Source: Kitasatospora sp. DSM 101779 (GTDB lineage Bacteria; Actinomycetota; Actinomycetes; Streptomycetales; Streptomycetaceae). From it: a stretch of 64,000 nt of DNA. Positions 15,601-47,410 of the stretch are shown in pieces (the stretch's first letter is position 1; each line of letters opens with the position of its first letter). The notes under the pieces are model-generated. The model was not told where the DNA came from. It worked only from the letters and a program-made list of their open reading frames with translations, and did not search any database. The position numbers were made by a program, and so were the translations under genes. The stretch covers positions 1,336,180-1,400,179 of the forward strand of contig NZ_JAHTIK010000001.1 of assembly GCF_025655475.1 (NCBI RefSeq), read 5' to 3'.

Positions 15601-16858
15601 CGCGGGCGACGGCGGTGGCGACCTGGGCGATCGAACGGACCTGCCCGGTCAGGTTGGACGCCATCACGTTGACGTTGTCGGTCAGGTCCTTCCAGGTGCC
15701 GGAGGCGCCCCGGACGGTGGCCTGCCCGCCGAGGTTGCCCTCGGTGCCCACCTCGCGCGCGACGCGGGTGACCTCGTCCGCGAACGCGGAGAGCTGGTCG
15801 ACCATGGTGTTGATGGTCTCCTTCAGCTCCAGGATCTCGCCGCGCGCATCGACCCGGATCTTCTGGCCGAGGTCGCCCCGGGCCACGGCCGTCGTCACCT
15901 CGGCGATCGAGCGGACCTGGGCGGTGAGGTTGCCGGCCATCGAGTTGACCGAGTCGGTGAGGTCCCGCCAGGTCCCGGACACGTCCCGCACGTCCGCCTG
16001 ACCGCCGAGCCGCCCCTCCGTCCCCACCTCACGGGCCACCCGGGTCACCTCGCCGGCGAACGCCGACAGCCGGTCGACCATCGTGTTCACCGTGTCCTTG
16101 AGCTCCAGGATCTCCCCGCGGGCCGCGACCCCGATCTTCTGCGTCAGATCACCCTCCGCCACGGCGGTGGCGACCTGGGCGATCGAGCGGACCTGGGCGG
16201 TGAGGTTGCCGGCCATCGAGTTGACCGAGTCGGTGAGGTCCCGCCAGGTCCCGGACACGTCCCGCACGTCCGCCTGACCGCCGAGCCGCCCCTCCGTCCC
16301 CACCTCACGGGCCACCCGGGTCACCTCGCCGGCGAACGCCGACAGCCGGTCGACCATCGTGTTCACCGTGTCCTTGAGCTCCAGGATCTCCCCGCGGGCC
16401 GCCACCTCGATCTTCTGCGTCAGATCACCCTCCGCCACCGCCGTGGTGACCTGGGCGATGTTGCGGACCTGGGTGGTCAGGTTGCCGGCCATCGCGTTCA
16501 CCGAGTCGGTCAGCTCGCGCCAGGTGCCCGAGACGCCCTCGACCTCGGCCTGCCCGCCGAGCCGGCCCTCGCTGCCGACCTCGCGGGCGACCCGGGTGAC
16601 CTCGGCCGTCACCCGGGAGAGCTGGTCGGCCATGCCGTTGAACACCTCGGCGATCTCGCCGAGCAGCCCGGGGCCGCCGGACGGCAGCCGGGTGCCGAAG
16701 TCCCCGTCGCGGACGGCCGTCAGCCCGGCGAGCAGCCGGCGCAGGTCCTCCTCGGGCAGCGCCCCGGGTGCGTCCGCGGGTTGGGGGCCGGCGGGCCGCA
16801 GGAAGCGGCCGGCGGCCCGGTCGGGTCCGTGGGGATCGGGCGGGATCGGTCGGTTCAT
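12677..16858 (-). CDS. Multi-HAMP hybrid sensor histidine kinase with two receiver-like domains
   Basis: 1393 residues with no transmembrane segment. A Pro-rich 35-residue start and a first HAMP-like half are followed by six near-identical 92-residue HAMP-type repeats (86-637) built around [17 protein letters not shown] and GDL-QKI. Then come GAF (about 650-800), a long coiled coil (about 800-885), HisKA with His891 in [14 protein letters not shown], HATPase (about 1000-1120; [15 protein letters not shown]), a degenerate receiver (about 1130-1230) and an intact receiver with Asp1324 ([13 protein letters not shown]). The architecture matches cytoplasmic osmo-/oxidative-stress kinases such as streptomycete OsaA and fungal group III kinases. 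GAGGACG precedes ATG 16858. The response output is probably phosphotransfer to a partner not in the window. Confidence 0.93.
15902..16126. repeat. 225-bp exact repeat, copy A (pairs with 16178-16402)
   Basis: These 225 bp are identical to 16178-16402, exactly one 276-bp HAMP unit away. The identity is at DNA level, including silent positions, which indicates recent duplication or gene conversion inside the kinase gene. Confidence 0.92.
16178..16402. repeat. 225-bp exact repeat, copy B (pairs with 15902-16126)
   Basis: Second copy of the exact 225-bp repeat in the HAMP-encoding array. Identity stops at the codons for IG/IE, just before the GEILELK helix region of each unit is complete. Confidence 0.92.
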
Positions 16859-16956
16859 CGTCGTCCTCGGCACGGTTCGGCACGTCCGGACGGTGTCCTC
16901 GCATCCACTCTGCCACCGCTGCCCGCAGGGGCGCCCCGCCGCGGGCGCGGATGCGC

Positions 16957-17379
16957 TCACCCACCCGCCGGGCGCTCGACCTCCAGCCACACCGTCTTGC
17001 CGGGCGGGCGCGGCACGCTCCCCCAGGCCGCGGCCAGCCGGTCCACCACCCGCAGACCGTGCCCGCCGGGCGAGGACCGCGGGCGGTCGGTCTGCACCAC
17101 GGGCAGGTCCGTGCTGTCGTCGGACACCTCGACCCGCAGTCCGCCACCGGTGCGCTGCAGGACCAGCTCGCGCGGGCCGCCTGCGTGCAGGCAGGCGTTG
17201 GTGACCAGTTCGCTCACCATGAGCAGCACGTCCTCGGCCACGGCCAGCCGCTCCCCGTCCGCCGCGGGCAGCCAGCCCCAGTCGTGCAGCGCCTCGCGGG
17301 TGAACTCGCGGCAGTGCTGCACCGCGCCGCGGGACTCGTACAGGGCCAGCCGCCGCACCTGCCCGGCCGGCCCGGTCAT
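16957..17379 (-). CDS. RsbW-like ATP-binding anti-sigma kinase (HATPase_c_2)
   Basis: 140 residues covering one GHKL ATPase domain. The N-box is in [17 protein letters not shown], the G1-like part is [11 protein letters not shown], and the lid is [18 protein letters not shown]. The ATG overlaps the stop of the STAS gene (ATGA), giving strict coupling of an anti-sigma kinase to its probable antagonist. In partner-switching systems such kinases bind a SigB/SigF-type sigma factor and phosphorylate a serine of the STAS protein. The presumptive target sigma factor is encoded 3 kb upstream in the same strand block. Confidence 0.88.
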
Positions 17380-17768
17380 CCACCGCCGCCAGGTCCGGGC
17401 CCCGCCTCGGCGGCGCTCTCGAACACCCGGAAGATCTCGCCCGCGCCGGTGATCTCCAGCATCCGCCGCACCATCGGGGTGGGGGCGGCCAGCACCACCT
17501 CGCCGCCCTCGGCCTGGGCGGACAGACGTGCCCGCAGCAGCAGGTTCAGCCCGGTCGAGTCGCAGAACGACAGGCCGGAGCAGTCCACCACCACCAGGAC
17601 CGGCGGGTCCCGCAGCGCCCCGTCGAGGGCCACGCGGAACGGCTCGGCGCTGTCGTGGTCCAGCTCTCCCGCCAGGGCCAGCACCCAGCGGCCGGCCGAC
17701 CGGTCCACGGAGACGGTCAGCTGGTCGGCGCCCGCGGGTCCGCCGCGTGCCGCGGTGTCGGCGTCCAT
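17376..17768 (-). CDS. STAS-domain anti-sigma-factor antagonist
   Basis: 130 residues with GGGAGGAG 7 bases before ATG 17768. The STAS core spans about 15-125: strand LALAGELDHDSAEPF, the VDCSGLSFCDSTGLNLLL segment with Ser71 as the expected phosphorylation site, and VVLAAPTPMVRRMLEITG. When unphosphorylated it should bind the RsbW-like kinase and free the sigma factor. Phosphorylation by the kinase and dephosphorylation by the neighbouring PP2C proteins would set the switch. The gene overlaps the kinase gene by 4 bp. Confidence 0.9.
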   Translation of the reverse strand: MDADTAARGGPAGADQLTVSVDRSAGRWVLALAGELDHDSAEPFRVALDGALRDPPVLVVVDCSGLSFCDSTGLNLLLRARLSAQAEGGEVVLAAPTPMVRRMLEITGAGEIFRVFESAAEAGPGPGGGG

Positions 17769-34116: not shown

Positions 34117-35160
34117 TCAGGTGCGGAACAGCGCGACCTTGAGGGCGCCGTGGTCGGCCGCCGCGCCGAAGACGTCGTAGGCCTCCGGCATCTCGTCGAG
34201 GCCGAAGCGGTGGGTGACCAGGCCGGCGGCCTCCAGCCGGCCGGCGGCGAGCATGGCGAGCAGCCGCGGGGTGGAGCTGGTGTCGACCAGGCCGGTGGTG
34301 ATGGTGACGTCCTTGATCCAGAGGTCTTCGAGGTGCAGGGTGGCGGCCCGGCCGTGGACGCCGACGTTGGCGACCCGTCCGCGTGGGCGGACCACCCGGG
34401 TGCACAGTTCGAAGGACTCGGGCACGCCGACGGCCTCGATCGCGGTGTCGACGCCGCGGTCGTCGCGGCCGAGCGCCCGCACGGCCTCGTCGGTGGCCTG
34501 CTGCAGCGTCAGCACCTCGTCGGCGCCGAGCCGCTTCGCCGCGTCGAGGCGGCCCTCGTCGGGGTCGACGACGACGATCCGGCCGGGGCTGTACAGCCGG
34601 GCGGTGATGACCGCGGCGAGCCCGATCGGTCCGGCGCCGACCACGGCGACGGCGTCGCCGGGTTCGACGCGGCCGTTGCGGACGCCCACCTCGTAGGCGG
34701 TCGGCAGGATGTCGGCGAGCATCAGCGCGGCCTCGTCGGAGACCTCGGGCGGCAGCCGGTGCAGGGAGTTGTCGGCGAAGGGGGTGCGGACGTACTCGGC
34801 CTGGGTGCCGTCGACCAGGTGGCCGAGGATCCAGCCGCCGCCCCCGGTGCACTGGCCGTAGGCCGCCTCGCGGCAGGAGGGGCACCGGCCGCAGGCGGAG
34901 ATGCAGGACACCAGGACGCGGTCGCCCGGCCGGACGGTGCGCACCCCGGGGCCGGTCCGGACGACCGTGCCGACGGCCTCGTGCCCGAGGACGCGGCCCT
35001 CGGCGACGTCCGGCACGTCGCCCTTGAGGATGTGCAGGTCGGTTCCGCAGATGGTGACGGCGTCCACCCGGACGACGGCGTCCTCCGGGTCGCGGACGGC
35101 CGGGTCGGGCACCTCTCCCCAGGTGCGGCGACCGGGCCCGTGGTAGGTGAGTGCCTTCAT
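34117..35160 (-). CDS. Zinc-dependent alcohol dehydrogenase-family protein
   Basis: 347 residues. The catalytic zinc motif TICGTDLHIL is near residue 37, GHEAVG near 61-66, the structural zinc cysteines are in CISACGRCPSCREAAYGQC, and the NAD Rossmann motif VVGAGPIGLAAV is near residue 170. This is a medium-chain dehydrogenase/reductase acting on a small alcohol or aldehyde, with the length of threonine-dehydrogenase/ADH-like enzymes. GAGGAGTG lies about 10 bases upstream of ATG 35160. A perfect DevR-like palindrome 78 bp upstream groups it with the universal stress and nitroreductase genes. Confidence 0.92.
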   Translation of the reverse strand: MKALTYHGPGRRTWGEVPDPAVRDPEDAVVRVDAVTICGTDLHILKGDVPDVAEGRVLGHEAVGTVVRTGPGVRTVRPGDRVLVSCISACGRCPSCREAAYGQCTGGGGWILGHLVDGTQAEYVRTPFADNSLHRLPPEVSDEAALMLADILPTAYEVGVRNGRVEPGDAVAVVGAGPIGLAAVITARLYSPGRIVVVDPDEGRLDAAKRLGADEVLTLQQATDEAVRALGRDDRGVDTAIEAVGVPESFELCTRVVRPRGRVANVGVHGRAATLHLEDLWIKDVTITTGLVDTSSTPRLLAMLAAGRLEAAGLVTHRFGLDEMPEAYDVFGAAADHGALKVALFRT

Positions 35161-35282: not shown

Positions 35283-36644
35283 TCAGCGGGGGGACAGTTC
35301 GTACAGGACGGGACCGGCGTGCGCTCCGGTGGCGAGGTTGACGACGAGACCGCCGGTGGTGGCGGGGGTGGCGCGGATGTAGGCGCCGCCGTGGCCGTTG
35401 ACCACGGTGAAGACCCCCCAGAGCGGCGTCCAGGGGTGGAGTTCGCCGTTGTCGTCGGCGAAGAGCTCGACCGTCGGCCGGACCCGCCGCTGCAGGATGT
35501 ACGGTCGGTCGAGCGCCGCGTGGACGTGCTCGCTCCACTCGTCGGCGGTCAGACCCTCCGTCCAGCCGGGCAGCACCCCGGATCCGCCGGCGAGCGAGGT
35601 GGGCTTGAGCACCAGGTCCTGCTGGTGGGCCAGGGCGTACTCGACGAGGTCGACGGACTCCCCGTTCTCCAGGGTGACCGGACCGGGGCGGACCATCCGC
35701 GTCCAGGTGAGGATCCGGTCGAGGCTGGCGAGCACGTCGGCGCCGAACAGGCCCCGGTTCCGCTCGTCGGAGAGCAGGGCGAGGGCGCCCTTGCTGGCGT
35801 ACACGGCCGAGTCCAGCGGAGTGAAGATCCGGACCTCGCCGCGCTCGGCGGCGTCGAGGATCGGGTGGACCAGCTGCAGGGCCTGCGGGGACTTGAGCAG
35901 GTCGCCGATCAGGAACACCCGGAAGACGATGTCGACCGCCTTCTCGCCGAGCCAGACCCGGCCGTCCCGCGCCTCCAGCTGGCCGACGTGGCACGGGTGG
36001 GCCTCCAGCCCGAACTCGCCCCAGCGGTCGCAGAGCGCCTCCATGTAGGGCAGCATCCGCCCGTAGCCGTCCGGCCAGTCGGTCAGCGCGACCACGGGGC
36101 TGTCCCCGGGGCCGAACCCGCTCTCCACCACGATGTTGTTGACCTGTTCGCGCAGCGAGTCCACGAAGCCGAGCTCGTGGCGCTCGGCGAAGTCCGCGAG
36201 GTGCGGGCGGGCGAGCAGCTCCCGGCACATGTCGGGGTTGTCCATGCCGCCGACGGCACTGCCGATGTTGAGTTCGAGCAGTTTGAAGCCGGTGTCGTCG
36301 ACGTAGAGGTCGGCCCGGGTCTGCCGGCTCACCGTCGCGCCCCGGCCGCGCATCACGGCGGAGACCTGGACGTCGGTCAGCCCGACCGCGCGGGCGAACG
36401 CCTCGAAGTCGCCGCCGAAGAGCAGGTCCGGCAGGGACGCCAGGGCGCTGCGCAGGTTCTCCAGGTCGGCGTGGAGCTGCACCTGTTCGGCGTGGCCGAG
36501 GAACAGCGGCCGGGTCAGGTACCGGCCCTCGTACATCCCGTCGAGGAACTCCGAGCCGACCGGGCCGACCGCCGGGGTGTCGGCTCCGGGTCCGATCCGG
36601 GCCAGCTCGGCCAGGTACGCGCGGGTCAGGGAGATGCGGTCCAT
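35283..36644 (-). CDS. ATP-grasp-like ligase (glutathionylspermidine-synthase-like/circularly permuted type)
   Basis: 453 residues from ATG 36644, 10 bp after the permease stop. The C-terminal half has LVLKPTSLAGGSGVLPGW (ATP-loop-like Lys and Gly-rich loop), RPYILQRRVRPTVELFADDN and the terminal YIRATPATTGGLVVNLATGA. These resemble the ATP-binding part of circularly permuted ATP-grasp enzymes. The first 200 residues include LKLLELNIGSAVGGMDNPDM (written here as FKLLELNIG in the sequence), recalling the ELN motif of that family. It probably forms an amide bond with ATP. It is the last gene of the operon driven from 42.6 kb. An alternative is a non-catalytic ATP-grasp homologue. Confidence 0.65.
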   Translation of the reverse strand: MDRISLTRAYLAELARIGPGADTPAVGPVGSEFLDGMYEGRYLTRPLFLGHAEQVQLHADLENLRSALASLPDLLFGGDFEAFARAVGLTDVQVSAVMRGRGATVSRQTRADLYVDDTGFKLLELNIGSAVGGMDNPDMCRELLARPHLADFAERHELGFVDSLREQVNNIVVESGFGPGDSPVVALTDWPDGYGRMLPYMEALCDRWGEFGLEAHPCHVGQLEARDGRVWLGEKAVDIVFRVFLIGDLLKSPQALQLVHPILDAAERGEVRIFTPLDSAVYASKGALALLSDERNRGLFGADVLASLDRILTWTRMVRPGPVTLENGESVDLVEYALAHQQDLVLKPTSLAGGSGVLPGWTEGLTADEWSEHVHAALDRPYILQRRVRPTVELFADDNGELHPWTPLWGVFTVVNGHGGAYIRATPATTGGLVVNLATGAHAGPVLYELSPR

Positions 36645-36654
36645 GGATCTCTCT

Positions 36655-38025
36655 CTACTGTTCGGCAGCCGCGGTTGCGCGGCGGCCACGGATCAGGGCG
36701 ACGGCGAGGACGACCAGGGCGAGCACGGCCGAGCTGATCAGCTGGATCCTGGTCCCGGGGTCGACCAGCATCAGCCCGAGCAGCGCGACCATGGCGGCCA
36801 GGGCGGCCCAGCTCAGGTACGGGTGGCCCCACATCCGCACCGGCGAGCCGGCCGGCAGCCGCGGGCGGAGCCGGAGTTGGGAGCAGGCGACGAGGATCCA
36901 GACCAGCAGCAGCACCGTGCCGACCGCGTCGAGCAGGTGGAGGAAGACCGTGCGCGGCCAGAGCAGGTTGAGCACGACCCCGACGAACCCGAACGCGGCC
37001 GAGGCGAGCACGGCGTGGTGCGGGACGCCCGTCCGGCCGAGCCGGGCCAGCAGGGCGGGCGCCTGGCGACGGCGGGCCAGCGAGAAGGCCATCCGGGCGG
37101 CGGCGTAGGTGTTGGCGTTGAGTGCGGACAGCAGGGCGATCAGCACGACGACCCGCATGACCTGCCCCGCGGCGGGAACGCCGACGTGGTCGAGGACGGC
37201 GGCGAACGGGCCGGCGCCGACCTGCGGGTCGGACCAGGGCAGCAGGGTGACCACGACCGCCATCGAGCCGAGGTAGAAGACGGCGATCCGCCAGACGGCG
37301 GCACGGACGGCGCGGCCGGTGGCCCGGGCCGGGTCGTCGGACTCGGCGGCGGCGATGGTGACGACCTCCAGGCCGCCGAAGGCCGGGACGGCGGTGGTGA
37401 GTCCGGCCGCCACACCGGCCCAGCCGTGCGGCAGCAGGTCTCCCTCCAGGGCGCCCGCGTCCCCGCCGGGGAGCACTCCGGCGATCGCCAGCACGCCGAT
37501 GACCAGGAAGCCGACGATCGCGGCGACCTTGACCAGCGCGAACCAGAACTCGAACTCTCCGAAGTTCCCCACCGCGGTGAGGTTGACCGCGGTGAAGACC
37601 GCCATGAACAGCAGCACCAGCAGCCACTGCGGGACGGCCGGCAGCCAGCCGTGCACGATGACGGCGGCCGCGGTCGACTCCAGGGCGAGCACGACGACCA
37701 GCGTCAGCCAGTACATCCAGCCGATGGTGAACCCGGCCCACGCGCCGAAGGCGCGTTCCGCGTGCTCGGAGAAGGAGCCGCTGGACGGGTGGGCGGCGGC
37801 CATCTCGGCCATCATGCGCATCACCAGCACGGTGAGGACGCCGGCCGCCGCGAAGGACAGCACGATTCCCGGTCCGGCTGCGGCGATGCCCGCGCCGGAG
37901 CCGACGAACAGGCCGGACCCGATCACGCCTCCCATGGCGAGCATGCCGAGGTGGCGCGCACGCAGGGTGCCGCGCAGGGCCCCCTCCGGTCGCGACTCGG
38001 TGACGGGTGGGGCGGTGAGGGTCAT
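36655..38025 (-). CDS. Amino acid permease (APC superfamily)
   Basis: 456 residues, 12 helices. The N-terminal GMLAMGGVIGSGLFVGSGAG is the signature first helix of amino acid/proton symporters (AAT type). AAAHPSSGSFSEHAERAFG and AVPAFGGLEVVTIAAAESDD are also characteristic. The ATG overlaps the MFS stop (ATGA) and the gene ends in TAG, rare here. In this operon it may supply a precursor amino acid or recapture or export an amino-acid-like product. Confidence 0.9.
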   Translation of the reverse strand: MTLTAPPVTESRPEGALRGTLRARHLGMLAMGGVIGSGLFVGSGAGIAAAGPGIVLSFAAAGVLTVLVMRMMAEMAAAHPSSGSFSEHAERAFGAWAGFTIGWMYWLTLVVVLALESTAAAVIVHGWLPAVPQWLLVLLFMAVFTAVNLTAVGNFGEFEFWFALVKVAAIVGFLVIGVLAIAGVLPGGDAGALEGDLLPHGWAGVAAGLTTAVPAFGGLEVVTIAAAESDDPARATGRAVRAAVWRIAVFYLGSMAVVVTLLPWSDPQVGAGPFAAVLDHVGVPAAGQVMRVVVLIALLSALNANTYAAARMAFSLARRRQAPALLARLGRTGVPHHAVLASAAFGFVGVVLNLLWPRTVFLHLLDAVGTVLLLVWILVACSQLRLRPRLPAGSPVRMWGHPYLSWAALAAMVALLGLMLVDPGTRIQLISSAVLALVVLAVALIRGRRATAAAEQ

Positions 38026-39308
38026 TCGAGGTCCTTGGACGAGGCACGGGGACGGGGGGACGGGCGGTGCGGTGCGGAGACGGGTTCGACCACGGCCTCC
38101 CCGGCGCGGCCCGGCATCCTGGACCAGCGGAGGGCCAGGACGGCGGAGACCGCCGCCCCCACGGCGCCGAACACCGTGATGACGACCGAGGCCGGGGCGT
38201 GGTCGGCGGCGAGGCCGGCCAGCGAGATGCCGACCCCCTGGGCCATCCGGACGGCCGCCGAGGCCAGTCCGAACGCCTTGCCGCGCTGGGAGTCGGGGAC
38301 GGAGCGGCTGTACTCGGCGTTCGCCGGAACCTGGAACGCCGAGAACACCCCGGAGGCCGCCCAGAGTACGCAGGTCACGGCGGTGTTCGGCGACACCACG
38401 GTGAACGTCAGCAGCGCGCAGGAGGCGACGGCCAGCGGCCCGAGCAGCCGGAGGCCTCGGTCCGGGTTCACCCAGCGGGTCAGCACGAACATGCCGACGA
38501 CCGCGCCGGCCGGACTGGCGGCGAGGAGCAGGCCCACCCCGGTCGGCCCCTGCCCCATGGCATGGGCGTACGGGGTGGCCAGCCCCTCCTTGCAGGCGTA
38601 GAAGCCGGACACGGTGCCGAACGCCACCAGCAGGCGCAGGCGGCGGTCGGCCCGGACGAGTCCGGCACCACCGGTGAGCACGCTCCACCGGCCGCCCGCC
38701 GGCGCGCCGCCGCTCGGCCGCGGGCGGCGCACCAGACCGAGCCGGGTGAGCGCGGCCGAGACCGTGAAGGTGGCCGCGTTGAGCAGCAGCGCCCGGGAGG
38801 GTCCGAGCGCCGCGACCGCCGCACCGCCGGCCGCGAAGCCGGCGAGCTGGCCGAGCTGGGCGGTCAGGTTGACCACCGCCGACGCGGGCAGGTAGTGCTC
38901 GCCGGGCGCGATCGTCGGCAGCAGCGCCGACCGTGCCGCCAGGTGCGGCGACTGGGCCAGCTGTACCGCGACGACCAGCGAGCACAGCAGCCACAGCGGC
39001 GTGCCGGGCACCGCCATCACGGCGACCAGGCCGGTGCGGACCAGGTCGCACACCACCATCAGCCCGCGCCGCGCGAAGCGGTCGGCCAACCAGGACAGCA
39101 TCGGCCCGCCGACCAGCTCCGGCAGCAGCGTCAGGGCGTAGGTGAGTGCGGCCAGCCCCGCCGACGCGCTCCGGTCGAACACGAGCAGGGCCAGCGCCAC
39201 CCGGGTGAGCTGGTTGCCGCCCACGGAGATCAGCTGGGCCAGCCACAGCATGCGGAACTCGCGGAGGGCGAGCACCCGGCCGAAGCCCGCCGTCGGCGGC
39301 CTGCTCAC
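38022..39308 (-). CDS. MFS transporter, probable product exporter
   Basis: 428 residues from GTG 39308, overlapping the ATP-grasp stop (GTGA). It has 12 helices of the MFS_1/enterobactin-exporter-like type: LREFRMLWLAQLISVGGNQL at the start, SWLADRFARRGLMVVCDLVR in the first cytoplasmic loop, and PDSQRGKAFGLASAAVRMAQG in the second half. Its place inside the biosynthetic operon suggests export of the pathway product or self-resistance. The cytoplasmic C-terminus is Pro/Arg/Ser-rich. Confidence 0.88.
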   Translation of the reverse strand: MSRPPTAGFGRVLALREFRMLWLAQLISVGGNQLTRVALALLVFDRSASAGLAALTYALTLLPELVGGPMLSWLADRFARRGLMVVCDLVRTGLVAVMAVPGTPLWLLCSLVVAVQLAQSPHLAARSALLPTIAPGEHYLPASAVVNLTAQLGQLAGFAAGGAAVAALGPSRALLLNAATFTVSAALTRLGLVRRPRPSGGAPAGGRWSVLTGGAGLVRADRRLRLLVAFGTVSGFYACKEGLATPYAHAMGQGPTGVGLLLAASPAGAVVGMFVLTRWVNPDRGLRLLGPLAVASCALLTFTVVSPNTAVTCVLWAASGVFSAFQVPANAEYSRSVPDSQRGKAFGLASAAVRMAQGVGISLAGLAADHAPASVVITVFGAVGAAVSAVLALRWSRMPGRAGEAVVEPVSAPHRPSPRPRASSKDLE

Positions 39309-40603
39309 GGGCGCGCCACCGACTGCGCGCGGCCGGCCACCCTGGCCACGGGGCGGTCCTCCACCGGCTCCCAGTCGAGGCGGTACTCGGCGAGCACCCG
39401 CCCGATCGCCGCCTCGATCCGCCGGCCGCTGGCCGCGCGGAACCGGTACCGCCCGCCGGTCTCCTTCGCCCCGCCGGTGCCGTTGAGGATCGCGCCCACC
39501 TCGGGCAGGACCTCCGCGTACATCTCGGGCACCTCGTCGAGGAGCGACCTGGTCGACAGCACCCGGCAGGGCCGCACCGGGGGCTCCGGGATCAGCAGGT
39601 AGCCGCCGGCCTCGCCCGCGGGGTCGAGCGGGGCCAGCTCCAGGGGTTCCCCGAGGGTCAGCCGGGTGGCGACCTCCAGCAGGTCGAGCCGGTACACGTC
39701 GCGCCAGACGTGCGGGAGTTCCGCACCACCGGCCCGCGCGGCCACCTCAAGGAACACCAGCCCGTCGTACGCGCCCGGTCCGGTCGGCTCGCAGACGAAC
39801 ACCTCGAGGTGGAAGACGCTGCTGCGCACGCCGAGGGCGGCGAGCGCCACCTCCGAGTAGCCCGTCAGCAGCCGTTCCAGCTCGGGGTCGTCCGCGGCCA
39901 CCGAGCCGAACGAGTCGCCCAGGGCGTAGTCCAGGCAGGTGTTGAGCAGCCGGAAGGCGCGGAGCACCCGCACCTTCCCGTCCTGGATCACCCCGTCGAC
40001 CTGGTACATGGGCCCGCTGACGTACTCCTCGCAGACGTAGCCCGGCAGCGGGGCGGCGAGCGTCTCCTCCAGTGAGGCGCGGGAGTTGACCAGGTAGATG
40101 CCCTGGCTGCCGGAGCCGTCCCGGGGCTTGAGCACGACCGGGAAGCCGACCTCGGCGGCGAACCGGCGGACCTGCCCGGGCTCGTCGGCGTCGACGAACC
40201 GGGGCACCCGCAGGCCCGCCGCGGCGACCAGCCGTTTCATCGTCACCTTGTCGCGGACCCGCGCCACGTCGGCCAGTCCGGGGCCCGGGACGCCGAGCAG
40301 CTCGCGCAGGGCGGCAGCCACCTCGAGGTCGCGTTCGAAGAGGGCGACGACGTGGTCCACCGGGCCGAAGTCGCGCACGATGCCGCGGGCCAGTTCGGCG
40401 ACCGCCGCCGCGTCCGCGAGGTCGTCGACGACGGCCACGGTCTCCGCCGCCGCGGCGTCGACGCCGCCGAGTCCCACCGCCGAGCAGAGGTAGGCGACCC
40501 GGTCGGCGGTGTGGTCGATGTACGCGGTGTAGTCGCAGCCGACCGACCGGTCGAAGCGGTTGAGGACGAGGATGTGCCGGCCGGCCGCGGCCCGGTCGCT
40601 CAT
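39305..40603 (-). CDS. ATP-grasp carboxylate-amine ligase
   Basis: 432 residues from ATG 40603 in an ATGA overlap with the methyltransferase stop. An N-terminal pre-ATP-grasp Rossmann half (HILVLNRFDRSVGCDYTAY) precedes the ATP-grasp core. The core has VRDKVTMKRLVAAAGLRVPR, FPVVLKPRDGSGSQGIYLV (ATP Lys and Gly-rich loop), YVCEEYVSGPMYQVDGV, and metal-binding residues in FHLEVFVCEPTG and LEVAARAGGAELPH. It resembles L-amino-acid ligases (BacD/YwfE type) that make dipeptides from free amino acids with ATP. This is the best candidate for peptide-bond formation in the cluster. Confidence 0.85.
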   Translation of the reverse strand: MSDRAAAGRHILVLNRFDRSVGCDYTAYIDHTADRVAYLCSAVGLGGVDAAAAETVAVVDDLADAAAVAELARGIVRDFGPVDHVVALFERDLEVAAALRELLGVPGPGLADVARVRDKVTMKRLVAAAGLRVPRFVDADEPGQVRRFAAEVGFPVVLKPRDGSGSQGIYLVNSRASLEETLAAPLPGYVCEEYVSGPMYQVDGVIQDGKVRVLRAFRLLNTCLDYALGDSFGSVAADDPELERLLTGYSEVALAALGVRSSVFHLEVFVCEPTGPGAYDGLVFLEVAARAGGAELPHVWRDVYRLDLLEVATRLTLGEPLELAPLDPAGEAGGYLLIPEPPVRPCRVLSTRSLLDEVPEMYAEVLPEVGAILNGTGGAKETGGRYRFRAASGRRIEAAIGRVLAEYRLDWEPVEDRPVARVAGRAQSVARP

Positions 40604-41604
40604 CCGTTCGACCCGTCGCGGGTCAGGTGCATCAGCGCCGTGTACGGGGGGAGGTCGAAGTCGACGACCTCGTTCAGGTTCCAGCCGGCCTCGGCGAGCA
40701 CGTCCTTCCACTCGGCCAGCGAGGGGATCATCTGGCCCATGACGGCGTGTGCGGTCTCGAAGCCGAGCGTGAAGACCGGGTGCCGGTCGGTGGACGGCAG
40801 GTCGGAACGGTAGGTGTCGCAGATGATGAGGTCGGTCGCCGCCGGGAACGCCTCGCCGATCAGCTTCAGGCTGGTCAGGCACTCCTCCCGCGGCCACAGG
40901 TCGTGCCCCATCATGAAGGTGCACACGAAGTCGACCTGGTCGAACTCGGGGCGGCTCTCCATCGCGGTCGCGTCGCCGTGGACGACGGAGATCCGGTCGC
41001 CGAGGCCGGCCCGGGCGACCGACTCGCTGGCCAGCGCCAGCGCGCCGGCGGCGAAGTCCACACCGACGCCCCGGAACTGCGGGTCCTGCTCGGCCAGCTT
41101 GATCAGCCGCTCGCCGCTGCCGCAGCCGAGGTCGGCGCCGTGGTGCAGGTTGCGCTCGGCGACGATCCGGTAGAAGACCGGGTCGACGTAGGAGAATCCG
41201 GCATCGCGGGCCCCCAGGCCGATGGCCTTGTAGTCGCGCCGGACGGTGAACCCGTCGGGGCGGTTGGCGTTGCGGATCAACTCCGGCATGGTGGTGAAGA
41301 GTTCGCCGCAGCCGCGGGTCAGCCAGTAGAAGAAGCCCTTCTTCGCCATGGTCTCGGCGAACAGCGGGCCGGGCGCGGCCGTCCGGTGGTCCGGGTCGAG
41401 CGTGACGATCCCGGCGAGTGCGAGGCCCCGGGCGACGGCCTCCACCGAGGGCGCGTCCAGGTCCTGGTCGCGGGCGAAGTCCCGCAGGTCCACCGGTGCT
41501 CCGGAGCTGTCCAGCCGGTCCAGCAGGCCCGTCTCCCAGGCCGTCGAGATGGCGAAGGCGGAGAGCGTGTGGTTGAAGACGTCGTCGATGACCGAGCCGG
41601 TCAT
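40600..41604 (-). CDS. SAM-dependent methyltransferase with N-terminal dimerisation domain
   Basis: 334 residues; GGGGGAA precedes ATG 41604, which overlaps the aminotransferase stop. A winged-helix-like dimerisation region (1-90: HTLSAFAISTAWETGLLDRL, VEAVARGLALAGIVTLD) leads to a Rossmann core with motif I HHGADLGCGSGERLIKLAE, the acidic residue in VGVDFAAGALALA, and VHGDATAMESRPEFDQVDFV. The layout resembles alpha-keto-acid C-methyltransferases (MppJ, SgvM, MrsA type) as well as O-methyltransferases. Coupling with an aminotransferase favours methylation of a keto acid to give a beta-methyl amino acid, but the chemistry is inferred. Confidence 0.8.
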   Translation of the reverse strand: MTGSVIDDVFNHTLSAFAISTAWETGLLDRLDSSGAPVDLRDFARDQDLDAPSVEAVARGLALAGIVTLDPDHRTAAPGPLFAETMAKKGFFYWLTRGCGELFTTMPELIRNANRPDGFTVRRDYKAIGLGARDAGFSYVDPVFYRIVAERNLHHGADLGCGSGERLIKLAEQDPQFRGVGVDFAAGALALASESVARAGLGDRISVVHGDATAMESRPEFDQVDFVCTFMMGHDLWPREECLTSLKLIGEAFPAATDLIICDTYRSDLPSTDRHPVFTLGFETAHAVMGQMIPSLAEWKDVLAEAGWNLNEVVDFDLPPYTALMHLTRDGSNG

Positions 41605-42596
41605 GGTTCCCCCAGGTGTTGTGTGCGAGAGCTGATCAGGATGTCGTCGACCGCGGCGACGAGGGCGGCGGTCTCGGCGGCGGAGCCGACGGTCACCCGC
41701 AGGGCGGCGCCGACCGGATGGACCCGGACCCCCCGGTCCAACAGGTCGGCGGCCCAGTCCGCGGTGCCGTGCGGCGGGCGTACGTACAGGAAGTTGGCCT
41801 GACTGGGCGCCACTTCGAAGCCTCGTCCGGCCAGTTCGCCGGCCAGCGCTTCGCGCTGCTCCCGGTTGCGGGTGCGGCGTGCCTTCCACGAGGCCGGGTC
41901 CGCGAGCGAGGCGAGGGCGGCCGAGCAGGCCGCGCTGCTGACCGTGAACGGCGTCTGCAGCGAGCGCAGCACGCCGATCAGCCGGGCGTGGCCGATGCCG
42001 TAGCCGACCCGCAGCCCGGCCAGACCGTGGATCTTCGAGAAGGTCCTGGTGGTCAGCAGGTTGGGCAGCTCCGACAGGGCCTTCAGCGACGGCCCGGCCT
42101 CCGCCTCGTCCGCGTAGTCGTGGTAGGCCTCGTCGTTGAGCACCACGGTGGTGTCGGGCAGCCGGCCCGCCAGGTCGGCGATCTCCTGCCGGGGTCGCCA
42201 CCCGCCGGTCGGGTTGTGCGGGTTGGACAGCGCCACCAGGCCGGCCCGCGCCTGCAGGACGTGGTCGGCCAGGTGCTCGTCGGGCGGCCAGGGCCGGGTC
42301 ACCGTCGGGGTGCCGCACTGGGCGCCCAGCATCGGGTAGAAGTCGAACTCGGGCTCGTGGAAGAACGCGGCCCGGTCCGGCCCGGTGAACGCCCGCCAGG
42401 CCAGGCCGATGATCTCGGCGCTGCCCGCGCCGATCAGGACGCGGTTCAGTGGCACGTCGTGCAGTTCGGCGATCGCCGCCTGCAGTGCACCGTCGCCGGT
42501 CGGGTACCGGTGCAGGTCCGGCACCAGCGCGTGCAGGGCCTCGGCCACGCCGGCCGGCGGTCCCTGCGGGTGTTCGTTGGCATGCAGACGCAGCAT
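41601..42596 (-). CDS. HisC-like class I/II aminotransferase
   Basis: 331 residues from ATG 42596 with GAGGGGGA upstream. PLP-enzyme features are IGAGSAEIIGLAWRAF, VALSNPHNPTGGW, VLNDEAYHDYAD, the Schiff-base Lys in TFSKIHGLAGLRVGYG, and the C-terminal Arg region GAALRVTVGS. It is close to histidinol-phosphate aminotransferases, which in secondary metabolism often act on other amino or keto acids. It is the first gene of the six-gene operon, so it probably makes the keto acid for the methyltransferase and/or returns it to an amino acid. Confidence 0.9.
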   Translation of the reverse strand: MLRLHANEHPQGPPAGVAEALHALVPDLHRYPTGDGALQAAIAELHDVPLNRVLIGAGSAEIIGLAWRAFTGPDRAAFFHEPEFDFYPMLGAQCGTPTVTRPWPPDEHLADHVLQARAGLVALSNPHNPTGGWRPRQEIADLAGRLPDTTVVLNDEAYHDYADEAEAGPSLKALSELPNLLTTRTFSKIHGLAGLRVGYGIGHARLIGVLRSLQTPFTVSSAACSAALASLADPASWKARRTRNREQREALAGELAGRGFEVAPSQANFLYVRPPHGTADWAADLLDRGVRVHPVGAALRVTVGSAAETAALVAAVDDILISSRTQHLGEP

Positions 42597-42714
42597 CGTC
42601 CCCCTCGATTCGATCTTTCGATTACCGTAGGAACCTCGACTGGATGACGACTGGACGTCAACTTTTCCTTCACACGGGCGAAGGACGCGGTGACGGTGCA
42701 AGGGGGACGCACGC
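42597..42714. promoter_or_regulatory. Divergent promoter of the biosynthetic operon and its SARP gene
   Basis: 118 bp of comparatively AT-rich DNA, with three CGAT elements (42606-42622) and an ATTACCGTAGGAA patch. All biosynthetic genes read left and the SARP gene reads right, so regulation of both is concentrated here. The SARP-type repeats are listed separately. Confidence 0.6.
42637..42655. promoter_or_regulatory. SARP-type direct repeat, 11-bp spacing
   Basis: CGACTGGA occurs at 42637 and again at 42648, exactly 11 bp apart (one helical turn). A weaker CGTAGGAA lies 11 bp before the first copy. SARP activators bind heptamer direct repeats spaced by 11 bp near the -35 region. The site is in the divergent promoter beside the SARP gene itself. 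Confidence 0.55.
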
Positions 42715-45471
42715 GTGCAGGTACAGCTCCTGGGCCCGGTCCGGGTCCTGCAGGGGGAGGTCCGGCACGACGTGCCGACGGCGGGGCGGCGAGCGGTCCT
42801 CGGCGTCCTCGGGCTGGCGGCCGGCCGTCAGGTGTCCCGCACGGAGCTCGTCGACACCCTGTGGTCCGACGACCCGCCCAACTCCGCGGTCAACGTGATC
42901 CAGACCCATGTGAAGCACCTGCGGAAGCTGCTCGAACCCGAACGCCCGCCCCGCGCCCCCAGTTCGGTCCTGCTCTCCGTCGGCGACGGCTACCTGCTGC
43001 CTACCGAGGCCTGCGCGGTCGACGTCCGCATCTTCCGGAGCATGCTGAACCGCGCCGCGGCGGCCCGGCTGGCGGGGGACCACACCGGCGCCCTCGACCT
43101 GTTCGACTCGGCGCTGGCGCTGTGGCGCGCCGACTCCCCGCTCTCCGACGTCCCCGCCCTGGCCGCGCATCCCGCCGTCCTCGCCCTGACCGAGGAGCGG
43201 TTCGCGGCGCTGTCGGCGAAGGGCGAGACCCTGCTGTCCCTCGGGGCCGCCGACGAAGCGGTGGCGGTCTTCGAACAGGTCGCCCACGCACGCCCCCTGG
43301 ACGAGGCCGCGCTGGCCCGCCTGATCCGCGGATACGACGCAGCCGGGCGGCGGGCCGCGGCGGTCGACACCTACCACGAGGTGCGGCGCCGCCTCGCCGA
43401 GGAGCTCGGGATCGGCCCCGGCCCCGAACTCGCGGCCGCCTACCAGGTGCTGCTGACGGACGAGGCCTGGCACACCACCGCGCCCCCGAGGCGCCGGCCG
43501 GTGCCGGCGACCCTGCCGGGCGACGTGCCCGACTTCGTCGGCCGACAGCGCGAACTCGCCTGGCTCGGGCGGATCCTGACGCAGTCGGCGGGCGTCGCGG
43601 TGCCCGTCGCGGTGGTCTCCGGGACGGCCGGGGTCGGCAAGACGGCGCTCGCCCTGCACTGGTCGCACCAGGTCCGGTCGCGCTTCCCCGACGGCCAGCT
43701 CTACGTCGACCTGCGGGGCTACGACCCCCAGCAGCCGCTGTCCGGCAACGACGCCCTCGCCCGGCTGTTGTCCGCGATGGGCCTGCCCGCCCACGAGATC
43801 CCGCTGGACGAGGCCGACCGCGTGGCCCGGTACCGGACCGAACTCACCGGGCACCGCGTCCTGGTCGTGCTCGACAACGTCTCCTCGGTGGACCAGGTCC
43901 GCCCGCTGCTGCCCGGCACCGGATCCTGCGCGGTGCTGGTGACCAGCCGCGACACCCTGGGCGAGCTGGTGGCCCGGCACGGGGCCCGGCGGCTCCACCT
44001 CGACCTGCTGCCGATGAACGACTCGCTCGACCTGCTGCGCAGGCTGATCGGCGACCGGCTGGACCGCGAGACGGCGATCGGCGAGGACCTGGCCACCCAG
44101 TGCGTGGGGCTGCCGCTCGCCCTACGGGTGGCCGCCGAACTCGCGGCAACCCAGCACACCACCCCGTTGCCGGACCTGGTGTCCGAGCTGGCCGACCGCC
44201 GCAGGCGGCTCCACCTGCTGGACACGGTCGGTAACTCCGTCAGCGCGGTGTTCTCCTGGTCCTACCAGCACCTGCCGGCGACCGCGGCGCGCGTCTTCCG
44301 GCTGCTCGGCCTCCAGTTCGGCCCCCACGTGTCGCTGAGCGCGTCCGCCGCGCTCGCCGGACGCAGCCCGGACGACACCCGGAGCGCCCTGACCGCGCTC
44401 ACCCGGGCCCACCTGGTGCACCCCCTCGGCCCGGACCGGTACGGCATGCACGACCTGCTGCGGGCGTACGCGACCACGCTGGCGCACTCCCACGTCACGC
44501 CGGCCGACCGGGCGGCCGCCCAGCGGCGGCTCGTCGACTACTACCTGCACACCGCGAACGCCGCCACCGTGCTGCTCGGCCACCGCGACCCGATCGACCT
44601 GCCCCCGCCCGCACCGGACGTGCCGCCGCCGGCCTTCGCCGACCTCGACGGCGCCTCGGCGTGGTTCGCCGCCGAGCACCAGTGCCTGCTCGCCGCGGTC
44701 GACTCGGCCCCCGACGGCCGGGTCGGCCTGCTCGCCGGATCCATGGCGACCTACCTGGAACAGCGCGGCCACTGGCCGGACTGGGTGACCACGCAGCACG
44801 CGGCGCTGGACGCGGCACGGCGGCTGGACGACCGGCCGGGGATCGCCTCGGCGCTCGGCGAACTGGGCCGCGCCAACGCGAGGATGGGCCGCTACGAGGA
44901 GGCCGACCAGCTGCTGCGCCGGGCCGTCCCGCTGTTCCAGGAGCTCTCCGACCCGCTCGGCGAGGCGCACTGCCACAACAGTCTGACCCTGGTGTTCGAG
45001 CGGCGGCACGACTTCGTCTCCGCCCTGGCGGAGGCCACCTCCGCGCTGGCGAAGTACCGGGCCGCCGGCAACCGGACGGGCCAGGCCCGGGCGCTCAACA
45101 ACATGGGCTGGTGCAACACCCAGCTCGGCCGGTACCCGGCGGCCCGCCGGTGCTGCGAGCAGGCCCTCGTCCTCCAGCGCGAGATCGGCGACCGCAACGG
45201 CGAGAGCGCCACCCTCGACACCCTCGGCCTGGTGCACCACCGGGTCGGCCGGTACCACCGGGCCGTCGCCTGTTACGAGCAGGCCCTCGACATCTACCGG
45301 GAGTTCGGCGACCGGTTCAACGAGGCCGCCCTGCTCAACCACCTGGGCGACTCGGCCGACGCCGCGGGCGACCCGGTCACCGCGAGGGAGGCCAGGCGCA
45401 GCGCCCGCGAGATCCTCGCGGAGTTCGACCGCACCGGCCGCGCGGGTCAGGACCGGCGCCCCCGGACCTGA
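42715..45471 (+). CDS. AfsR/SARP-family regulator with NB-ARC and TPR domains
   Basis: 918 residues from GTG 42715, with AGGGGGA 7 bases upstream. The domains are: winged-helix DNA-binding domain (1-95: VQLLGPVRVLQG, VSRTELVDTLWSDDPPNSAV); BTAD (about 98-245); an NB-ARC ATPase (about 275-560) with P-loop VSGTAGVGKTALALHW, Walker-B-like VLVVLDNVSS and GLPLALRVAAELA; a winged segment (about 500-600); and TPR repeats at about 700-900, each with a GRY/Q-type turn. It is a pathway-specific or AfsR-like activator, likely switching on the divergent operon through the 11-bp-spaced repeats. Confidence 0.93.
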   Translation: MQVQLLGPVRVLQGEVRHDVPTAGRRAVLGVLGLAAGRQVSRTELVDTLWSDDPPNSAVNVIQTHVKHLRKLLEPERPPRAPSSVLLSVGDGYLLPTEACAVDVRIFRSMLNRAAAARLAGDHTGALDLFDSALALWRADSPLSDVPALAAHPAVLALTEERFAALSAKGETLLSLGAADEAVAVFEQVAHARPLDEAALARLIRGYDAAGRRAAAVDTYHEVRRRLAEELGIGPGPELAAAYQVLLTDEAWHTTAPPRRRPVPATLPGDVPDFVGRQRELAWLGRILTQSAGVAVPVAVVSGTAGVGKTALALHWSHQVRSRFPDGQLYVDLRGYDPQQPLSGNDALARLLSAMGLPAHEIPLDEADRVARYRTELTGHRVLVVLDNVSSVDQVRPLLPGTGSCAVLVTSRDTLGELVARHGARRLHLDLLPMNDSLDLLRRLIGDRLDRETAIGEDLATQCVGLPLALRVAAELAATQHTTPLPDLVSELADRRRRLHLLDTVGNSVSAVFSWSYQHLPATAARVFRLLGLQFGPHVSLSASAALAGRSPDDTRSALTALTRAHLVHPLGPDRYGMHDLLRAYATTLAHSHVTPADRAAAQRRLVDYYLHTANAATVLLGHRDPIDLPPPAPDVPPPAFADLDGASAWFAAEHQCLLAAVDSAPDGRVGLLAGSMATYLEQRGHWPDWVTTQHAALDAARRLDDRPGIASALGELGRANARMGRYEEADQLLRRAVPLFQELSDPLGEAHCHNSLTLVFERRHDFVSALAEATSALAKYRAAGNRTGQARALNNMGWCNTQLGRYPAARRCCEQALVLQREIGDRNGESATLDTLGLVHHRVGRYHRAVACYEQALDIYREFGDRFNEAALLNHLGDSADAAGDPVTAREARRSAREILAEFDRTGRAGQDRRPRT

Positions 45472-45676
45472 CCCTCCACCGGCCGCTCCGCACGACCTGA
45501 CGCACCCTCACCCCGCCGGGCCCGCTCCCGTGCGGGGCGAGGGCCGGGGACGGTGCCGGATCCTGACCGGCGGCCGGTCGACCGTCACCCGCGCGGCGCT
45601 GACGGCCGGAGAGCCGCTGTTCGGGGACCGGACTAGGCTGACACTGGCGTCTGATCCCGGGACCTCGGAGGAGCCG

Positions 45677-47410
45677 GTGGGCCACGCGTCGGATGAGGGC
45701 TCGGTGCCCCTGCCGCAGCTGAGGCTGGACGACCTGCTGGACGAGCTGCAGGCCCGGCTGGACGCGGCCAGGACCACCCGCGACCGGGTGCACAGCCTGC
45801 TGGAGGCCGTGCTGGCGGTCGGCCGCGACCTGGAACTGTCACAGGTGCTGCAGCACATCGTGGAGGCGGCCGTGTCCCTGGTGGACGCCGAGTACGGGGC
45901 GCTCGGGGTGATCGGCGAGGACCTGCGCCTGTCGCAGTTCATTCCGGTCGGGCTGACCGAGGAGCAGGTGAAGCTGATCGGGGACCTCCCGTCCGGCCGG
46001 GGGGTGCTGGGCGAGCTGATCCGCCACCCCGAGCCGCTCTGCCTGGCGGAGATCTCGGAGCATCCGGCGTCGTACGGCTTCCCGCCGAACCATCCGCCGA
46101 TGCACACCTTCCTCGGGGTGCCGATCCGGGTGCGCGGCCGGGTGTTCGGCAATCTGTACCTGACCGAGAAGCGCGGCGGCCAGGCGTTCGACGCCGAGGA
46201 CGAGTCGGTGCTGGCCACCCTCGCGGTGGCGGCCGGCGTGGCGGTGGACAACGCCCGGCTGTACGCGCAGGCGCGGCTGCGCGAGCAGTGGCTGGCCGCC
46301 GGCGCCGAGGTCACCGCGAGCCTGCTGTCCGGCAGCCGGGAGCAGGCGGTGCTGGACCTGCTGGTCGCCCGGGCCGGGGAGATCGCCAGGGCGGACCTCA
46401 CGGTCGTCGCGCTGCCGGTGCCCGGCACCGAGGAGCTGGAGGTGCGGATCGCGTCCGGGCTGCGGGCGGAGGAGCACACGGGGCTGGTGCTGCCGCTGAC
46501 CGGTTCGTTCGTCGGCGCGGCTGCCTCCGCCGGGACGCTGGTGACCAGCAGCGACGTCCAGCGGGACGCGCGGATCACCGCGGGCCCGCCGCGCTGGGAG
46601 GGCCTCGGCCCGGCGGTGGCCGTGCCGATCGGCACCGCCGGGGGGCGGGTGCGCGGTGTGCTGATGCTGGCCAGGGCCGCGGGCCGGCCGGTGTTCGACG
46701 CCGACGAGTCGGCGCCGCTGGAGGGCTTCGCCGGGCAGGCCGCGGTGGCGATGGAGCTGGCGGAGCGGCGGCGCGACTCCGAGCAGGTGGCGCTGCTGAG
46801 CGAGCGCGACCGGATCGCCCGCGACCTGCACGACCTGGCCATCCAGCGGTTGTTCGCGACCGGGATGACGCTGCAGGGGGCGACCCGGTTCATCGACCAT
46901 CCGGAGGCCGAGGAGCGGGTGCGGCGGGCGATCGACGACCTGGACGAGACCGCCCGGACGATCCGCGCGACGATCTTCGGGCTGCGCAGCCGGGAGGCCA
47001 CGCCGTCGGCCGGGGGCTTGCGGGCGCAGGCCGTCGAGGCGGTGCAGCGGGCGGCTGCTGTGCTGGGCTTCGCCCCGGCGCTGCGGATGTCCGGGCTGCT
47101 GGACACGGTGGTGCCGGCGCCCGTGGCGGGCGAGGCGGTGGCGGTGCTGGAGGAGGCGCTGTCGAACGCGGCCCGGCACGCCCGGGCCACCGCGGTGGAC
47201 GTGTCGGTGGAGCTTACGGGGGACGGCACCGGGGAGCGGCTGGTGGTCGCCGTCCGCGACAACGGGGTGGGCCTGCCGGAGGGCGGTCGGCGCAGCGGGC
47301 TGGCGAACCTCGCCGACCGGGCAGTCGCGCTGGGCGGGGAGTTCGTCGCCGGGGCGCGGCCGGGGGGCGGCACCGAGGTGGTCTGGCGGGTCCCACTCAC
47401 CGATGCGTGA
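45677..47410 (+). CDS. DevS/DosT-like GAF-GAF sensor histidine kinase (orphan)
   Basis: 577 residues from GTG 45677 with GGAGGAG upstream. A first GAF domain (about 45-190) ends with HPPMHTFLGVPIRVRGRVFG and NLYLTEKRGGQAFDAEDE, a pattern characteristic of DevS/DosT sensors, whose first GAF binds heme. The second GAF (about 200-350) is followed by HisKA_3 with RIARDLHDLAIQRLFATGMT (phosphoacceptor His) and HATPase (EEALSNAARHARAT, RDNGVGLPEGG). It probably senses O2, NO or redox and phosphorylates a DevR/OsdR-type regulator, which is not encoded in this window. It is convergent with a nitroreductase gene of the Acg type. Confidence 0.9.
   Translation: MGHASDEGSVPLPQLRLDDLLDELQARLDAARTTRDRVHSLLEAVLAVGRDLELSQVLQHIVEAAVSLVDAEYGALGVIGEDLRLSQFIPVGLTEEQVKLIGDLPSGRGVLGELIRHPEPLCLAEISEHPASYGFPPNHPPMHTFLGVPIRVRGRVFGNLYLTEKRGGQAFDAEDESVLATLAVAAGVAVDNARLYAQARLREQWLAAGAEVTASLLSGSREQAVLDLLVARAGEIARADLTVVALPVPGTEELEVRIASGLRAEEHTGLVLPLTGSFVGAAASAGTLVTSSDVQRDARITAGPPRWEGLGPAVAVPIGTAGGRVRGVLMLARAAGRPVFDADESAPLEGFAGQAAVAMELAERRRDSEQVALLSERDRIARDLHDLAIQRLFATGMTLQGATRFIDHPEAEERVRRAIDDLDETARTIRATIFGLRSREATPSAGGLRAQAVEAVQRAAAVLGFAPALRMSGLLDTVVPAPVAGEAVAVLEEALSNAARHARATAVDVSVELTGDGTGERLVVAVRDNGVGLPEGGRRSGLANLADRAVALGGEFVAGARPGGGTEVVWRVPLTDA

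Follow-up and report, generated by a model that had tools for sequence, protein, structure and literature searches.

A seven-gene Kitasatospora cassette with two predicted ATP-grasp ligases: a candidate route to a pseudo-tripeptide without a nonribosomal peptide synthetase

Relation to described systems

In the MppJ/aminotransferase systems, known from the beta-methylphenylalanine of mannopeptimycin and from the kin enzymes MarI, SgvM and MrsA, an alpha-keto acid is methylated at its beta carbon by an S-adenosylmethionine (SAM)-dependent enzyme with a metal centre, and the resulting beta-methyl amino acid is consumed by a nonribosomal peptide synthetase (NRPS). An NRPS-free, tripartite pseudopeptide logic is found in the fungal E-64 pathway (ATP-grasp enzyme Cp1B and amide bond synthetase Cp1D), and two successive ATP-dependent ligations involving the glutathione synthetase (GS) fold lead to tripeptide or peptide-amine products in the systems of glutathione, homoglutathione, glutathionylspermidine synthase (GspS) and YgiC. 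Here we describe a seven-gene cassette in a 64,000-nucleotide stretch of Kitasatospora sp. DSM 101779 (contig NZ_JAHTIK010000001.1, positions 1,336,180 to 1,400,179), called the window below. It holds an aminotransferase (AT), a methyltransferase (MT), a first ligase (ATPg1), a major facilitator superfamily (MFS) transporter, an amino acid permease (APC permease), a second ligase (CPlig) and a Streptomyces antibiotic regulatory protein (SARP). We consider it fairly probable that the cassette directs the NRPS-free synthesis of a pseudo-tripeptide with a beta-methyl, and probably aromatic, amino acid.

The cassette resembles the MppJ systems in its AT-MT pair and in both metal-ligand histidines, which are kept in MT, but the MT pocket differs at two residues and two stand-alone ligases are present in place of the NRPS. 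With E-64 it would share the tripartite logic; CPlig has the R-x-D...E-x-N residues and the predicted GS fold of Cp1B and, as was true of Cp1B until assayed, is a hypothetical protein lacking any Pfam domain. The sequence likeness of the two is marginal, however, the window has no epoxysuccinate synthase, and the partner of Cp1B is an ANL amide bond synthetase whereas that of CPlig is an L-amino-acid ligase. Unlike the enzymes of the glutathione systems, CPlig falls outside PF03738 and PF14403, the first ligase belongs to another family, and no housekeeping thiol pathway is involved. ATPg1 aligns with the L-amino-acid ligases 4wd3 and BL00235 (3vot) with intact ATP-site motifs, but differs from them in always accompanying CPlig in five clusters. 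Dapdiamide, cystargolide, phosphonoalamide and other ATP-grasp natural products also come from compact clusters with stand-alone amide-forming enzymes; we know of no gene set shared between these and the window, and of none among them with a GS-fold ligase of the CPlig family. Every enzyme class of the cassette is already known; no prior description of the gene combination or of the CPlig family was found in the literature searched, outside which most subscription papers lay. A review of SB-203208 that mentions both ATP-grasp enzymes and beta-methylphenylalanine describes no such cluster.

The cassette and its enzymes

The features of the cassette are as follows (window coordinates):
35283..36644, minus strand: CPlig, second ligase, 453 aa (GS/GspS/Cp1B fold in a predicted model)
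36655..38025, minus strand: APC permease, GABA-permease-like family (PF00324, E = 2.7e-109; TIGR01773, 471 bits)
38022..39308, minus strand: MFS transporter, probable product exporter (PF07690, E = 2.3e-27; TIGR00900)
39305..40603, minus strand: ATPg1, canonical ATP-grasp L-amino-acid ligase by homology, 432 aa (4wd3, 3vot)
40600..41604, minus strand: MT, MppJ-like alpha-keto-acid C-methyltransferase by homology, 334 aa (MppJ 4kib, 242 bits)
41601..42596, minus strand: AT, HisC-like fold-type-I aminotransferase dependent on pyridoxal phosphate (PLP), 331 aa (PF00155, E = 1.4e-44)
42639..42655, minus strand: putative SARP operator, a TCCAGT direct repeat in the AT-SARP intergenic region
42715..45471, plus strand: large SARP of the AfsR type, 918 aa (PF03704, PF00486, PF00931, TPR)

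AT, MT, ATPg1, MFS and APC are chained by four junctions, each an overlap of exactly 4 bp, and the start of CPlig is separated from the APC permease gene by 10 bp. The SARP gene is divergent from this six-gene minus-strand operon. A preliminary description of this DNA, prepared from the sequence alone, had given the gene list, the coordinates and the divergent SARP exactly to the base. The overlaps and the gap that it reported were measured; the overlaps and the gene order recur in independent copies, so the arrangement is not due to chance. Pfam and NCBIfam searches, which it had proposed, confirmed its families for AT, MT, ATPg1, the MFS transporter, the APC permease and the AfsR-type SARP; CPlig alone was left unnamed, in line with the wording ATP-grasp-like in that description. 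The 471-bit score of the permease falls under the curated cut-off of TIGR01773. Inspection of the operon and of the flanking genes covered revealed no gene for an NRPS, a polyketide synthase, a radical-SAM enzyme or a precursor peptide.

All seven genes are complete, with unchanged order and orientation, in five clusters of Kitasatospora and Streptomyces, the one in the window included. The other copies are those of Kitasatospora sp. Root107 (L032/L083), a congener (L033), Streptomyces sp. NBC_01237 (L072, carried on a 1.6-Mb plasmid) and Streptomyces sp. TSRI0281 (L082). The flanks of the window, of the Root107/G120 pair and of the NBC_01237/TSRI0281 pair are unlike one another, which sets the borders of the cassette at SARP and CPlig; the neighbourhood comparison suggested earlier thus yields seven co-inherited genes among unrelated flanks, a self-contained and bounded cassette. 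The downstream alcohol dehydrogenase gene (34117-35160) and a histidine kinase gene (45530-47410) were considered as further members and rejected, as neither recurs next to the cassette in the other four copies. The MutE and NRPS genes near L072 and L082 were judged to belong to a separate neighbouring cluster. Protein by protein, the window copy is 80-84% identical to the Streptomyces pair and 73-80% identical to the Kitasatospora pair, and SARP is co-conserved with the operon at 74-83%. From the higher identity to Streptomyces than to congeners we infer horizontal transfer, the cassette having been shared more recently with the former. An MT at orthologous identity is present in just three of the 70 genus genomes. 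In Root107 (L032:5962-8487) the ATPg1 frame lacks its last ∼80 residues due to a frameshift and continues into the MFS gene, reflecting either an assembly error or decay.

CPlig gave no Pfam match (E 0.001) and no NCBIfam match. Among 32 relatives, PF14403 was matched by three and PF03738 by one (weakly), and no NCBIfam model matched any. A single-sequence phmmer search against PDB returned nothing credible (best E = 0.15); CPlig was placed only by a family profile and a fold search. The family profile gave marginal PDB matches only, with Cp1B at the top (E = 0.011) and GspS also present. An AlphaFold2 model was computed from 32 family sequences (pLDDT 90.3, pTM 0.90); the plasmid copy L072 was left out of the family set used for structure prediction and residue conservation. 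Foldseek ranked glutathione synthetases first (E = 4.6e-18). VIA-align Z scores of the model were 26.5 for homoglutathione synthetase, 25.8 for human GS, 25.7 for YjfC and YgiC, 24.4 for GspS and 24.0 for Cp1B, and these matches (Z 24-26.5) span 356-413 residues at 3.5-4.2 Å. After this group Z falls to 12.1, and then to 9.4 or less for other ATP-grasp proteins. CPlig is therefore predicted to have the GS/GspS/YgiC/Cp1B fold along almost all of its sequence. The earlier guess of PF14403 or PF03738 for this ligase holds for the fold and for a few relatives, but CPlig itself is matched by neither of the two.

The catalytic residues point in the same direction. R110, D112, E124, K285 and K347 are invariant in 32 diverse family sequences and N126 is present in at least 90% of them. 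In a profile-profile comparison with GSP_synth proteins (probability 88%, E = 3e-6), R110-x-D112, E124-x-N126 and K285 are in register. In Cp1B, R139, D141, E163 and N165 surround the nucleotide, and exchange of these residues for alanine lowers the activity or removes it (PMC12568646); the R110-x-D112...E124-x-N126 pattern of CPlig corresponds to this set. A link of CPlig to Pur6 of puromycin biosynthesis was also tried and dropped: Pur6 is an 84-kDa protein whose model is weakly gingipain R-like and shows no ATP-grasp domain.

ATPg1 aligns with the solved L-amino-acid ligases 4wd3 (E = 6.8e-14) and 3vot (E = 3.1e-10), and its K119, K159, E267, E286 and R290 are invariant across 17 diverse relatives. 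By homology, ATPg1 is an L-amino-acid ligase with its ATP-site residues intact. The preliminary description had taken a loss of ATP-site residues as evidence against its reading; they are kept in both ligases.

The two ligase types also occur together elsewhere. Within up to ∼10 kb on each side, a canonical ATPg1-like ligase was found near 49 of 67 CPlig proteins (21 of 32 after collapse at 70% identity), often as the direct neighbor. The background, estimated from 120 ATPg1-like ligases in ∼191.7 Mb of 21 genomes (the own genome and 20 relatives), is 0.0125 per 20 kb. Fusions of CPlig with an ATP-grasp ligase occur at four loci (L049, L051, L052 and L054), the one in L049 with PF18603 (LAL_C2).

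Among solved structures MT is by far the nearest to the phenylpyruvate C-methyltransferase MppJ (4kib, 242 bits), followed by 8ftr/8ftv (51 bits) and 2-ketoarginine methyltransferase (47 bits), in agreement with the AT and alpha-keto-acid C-methyltransferase pair proposed before. MT H234, H286, R123, D235, M231 and W94 align to MppJ H243, H295, R127, D244, M240 and W99 and are invariant in the five orthologs. In MppJ these residues are known metal ligands and substrate contacts, H243 and H295 being the metal ligands and R127 the arginine that binds the keto acid. Two pocket positions differ from MppJ (S104 to C99 and V300 to Q291), again invariantly in the five orthologs. Because homology to MppJ comes with an intact active site, it is well supported that MT methylates an alpha-keto acid at its beta carbon; phenylpyruvate as its substrate is only the best guess. 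The nearest solved relative of AT is 4r2n, a putative phenylalanine aminotransferase (116 bits). AT has its PLP lysine K188 in an SK motif, is conserved across the five orthologous clusters, and by sequence belongs to the HisC/aromatic group of fold-type-I enzymes. MppJ-like methyltransferases with 38-42% identity to MT are also encoded on plasmids of Streptomyces goshikiensis, sp. Mg1, NBC_00637 and others (H12-H18), where their only annotation is class I SAM-dependent methyltransferase.

The SARP has DNA-binding, BTAD, NB-ARC and TPR domains in Pfam, the composition of the large AfsR type. Between SARP and AT lies TCCAGTCGTCATCCAGT, a SARP-type direct repeat with 11-bp spacing, which is the classical repeat spacing of SARP sites (PMC5930380). 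The form CGTCCAGTCGYCRTCCAGT, with two TCCAGT boxes at an 11-bp period, is kept in all five aligned SARP-AT intergenic regions. The pattern TCCAGTNNNNNTCCAGT was matched once in the window, where no match was expected (none in shuffles), and is single-copy in the whole 8.5-Mb genome, at this same intergenic region. A longer form of the operator occurs once each in the own genome (G000), G041 and G120, always at the SARP-AT spot. In the window copy, a TACGGT hexamer 9 bp downstream of the repeat fits the TAnnnT pattern and is like -10 elements. The TCCAGT repeat is thus a putative operator, to which the SARP would bind.

Proposed pathway and its alternatives

We propose that binding of the SARP to the 11-bp direct repeat would switch on the six-gene operon. 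AT would turn an amino acid, most likely an aromatic one, into its alpha-keto acid, MT would add a methyl group to the beta carbon, and AT would then restore the beta-methyl amino acid. ATPg1 would couple this residue to a second amino acid via an acyl-phosphate to give a dipeptide, and CPlig would activate the dipeptide carboxylate and attach a third unit, an amino acid or an amine. Such a scheme parallels glutathione synthesis, where GS adds glycine to gamma-glutamylcysteine. The MFS protein would export the product and the APC permease would supply or recover a building block. We infer the substrates, ligation order, product, SARP binding and directions of transport, while two ATP-grasp ligations as such are expected from homology with intact active sites. 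The core of the preliminary description, a ligase-built, NRPS-free and SARP-controlled pathway with a keto-acid C-methyltransferase and an aminotransferase, gains support from the MppJ-like MT and the two intact ligases; its C-methylated amino acid or dipeptide would indeed be methylated, but a tripartite product is more likely than a simple dipeptide. As a small gene set whose predicted steps can be tested, the operon offers access to a new peptide natural product made without an NRPS, and a candidate operator and its regulator provide the switch.

Several observations weigh against this pathway. The changes of S104 to C99 and V300 to Q291 mean that phenylpyruvate may not be the substrate of MT. 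Of the 67 CPlig relatives, 18 have no canonical ATP-grasp ligase nearby, several of these loci having an NRPS-like gene instead, so CPlig need not always extend the product of an L-amino-acid ligase. Finally, the first amide bond of E-64 is formed by Cp1B from a non-amino-acid carboxylate, and by analogy the order of ligation could be reversed. The last point leads to the main rival explanation, in which CPlig, acting like Cp1B, would first couple the beta-methyl amino acid with an acid that is not an amino acid, with ATPg1 acting second or elsewhere, and the product would be an acylated amino acid or dipeptide and not a dipeptide extended at its C-terminus. It draws on Cp1B as the closest characterised natural-product relative of CPlig (E = 0.011), with a shared fold (Z 24) and activation of epoxysuccinate with hydrophobic L-amino acids as nucleophiles (PMC12568646). 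The operon, however, has no gene for an obvious non-amino-acid carboxylate, and homoglutathione synthetase and human GS rank structurally at least as high as Cp1B. We regard the reversed or separate ligation as rather unlikely.

A precursor other than phenylalanine is a substantial possibility, somewhat short of even, and is compatible with the two-ligase pathway proposed above. Indolepyruvate, 4-hydroxyphenylpyruvate or another keto acid would fit the invariant pocket changes and an AT that is merely HisC/aromatic-like, but MppJ is the best MT match by a wide margin, and W94 and M231 are conserved. It is improbable that CPlig is inactive or modifies a polyamine or peptide for self-protection in the manner of the peptidyl-polyamine synthetases YgiC and YjfC. 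These two are among its closest folds and the permease is GABA-permease-like; the catalytic residues, however, are kept across 32 diverse members, and members of the family turn up in natural-product clusters of many kinds, in four of them fused to an L-amino-acid ligase. Amino-acid permeases and HisC-like aminotransferases are common in primary metabolism, and since the family assignments include both, the operon could be one for primary metabolism or nutrient use that merely resembles a biosynthetic cluster. This explanation is very improbable in view of the presence in 3 of 70 genus genomes, the Streptomyces plasmid copy, the differing flanks, the SARP-type operator and the MppJ-like MT. 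Conservation with primary metabolism only, which the preliminary description had set against its own reading, was not observed: the gene set is sporadic, plasmid-borne once, and varies in its flanks.

The CPlig family in other clusters

Relatives of CPlig were detected in 63 of 200 Streptomycetaceae genomes and in 20 of 395 genomes sampled across the class. We give an even chance to the view that CPlig founds a large unnamed GS-fold family, in bacteria the equivalent of fungal Cp1B, whose members form the second amide bond in numerous natural-product clusters of actinomycetes, and that the cassette belongs to a wide class of two-ligase pathways to pseudo-tripeptides likely missed by profile-based detection. 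Among the neighborhoods of the family are cassettes of the hydrazine type, clusters with a glutamate mutase and a route to an amino acid derived from chorismate, and CPlig as a search bait should reveal many unannotated clusters. Enzymes of this type may also find use as biocatalysts for amide formation, as has been the case for Cp1B.

The same genome has a second CPlig (L067, G000:C1:2358500-2378000), a paralog at 31% identity with an ATPg1 paralog and a SARP alongside; the locus further holds an MFS gene, a KASIII-like protein and a 660-aa protein without Pfam match. The conserved clusters L049, L051, L052 and L054 combine the ATP-grasp-CPlig fusion with an ATPg1-like ligase, methylaspartate (glutamate) mutase E, a HypF-like carbamoyltransferase, a HypE/AIRS-like partner, a PLP decarboxylase, a desaturase and an isochorismatase; hydrogenase-type maturation genes are odd in a natural-product context. 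CPlig stands beside a lysine N6-monooxygenase in L073, L084, L086, L040 and L043, most of which also have a methionyl-tRNA-synthetase-like protein and small cupin-like proteins, a gene set familiar from N-N bond (hydrazine) formation.

Sister clusters (L089, L090, L035 and L097) have a CPlig at ∼60% identity, a HisC-like AT and an ATP-grasp ligase. The additional genes of L089 (3-deoxy-D-arabino-heptulosonate 7-phosphate synthase, a chorismate-binding enzyme, DUF362 and an FAD oxidase) suggest a chorismate-derived amino acid. In Actinoplanes sp. KI2 (L097 gene 8), CPlig and the MFS exporter of the sister cluster are in one 856-aa frame. More distant proteins, mostly of ∼450 aa and scoring 80-119 bits to the CPlig profile, occur in L048, L100-L102 and L106-L108 (e.g., L106:5457-6833, without a Pfam match); lying near true CPlig proteins, they may form a second, more divergent ligase branch. 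Elsewhere in the window, positions 12677-17383 encode a 1568-aa hybrid histidine kinase with at least six HAMP domains, a GAF domain and a receiver domain.

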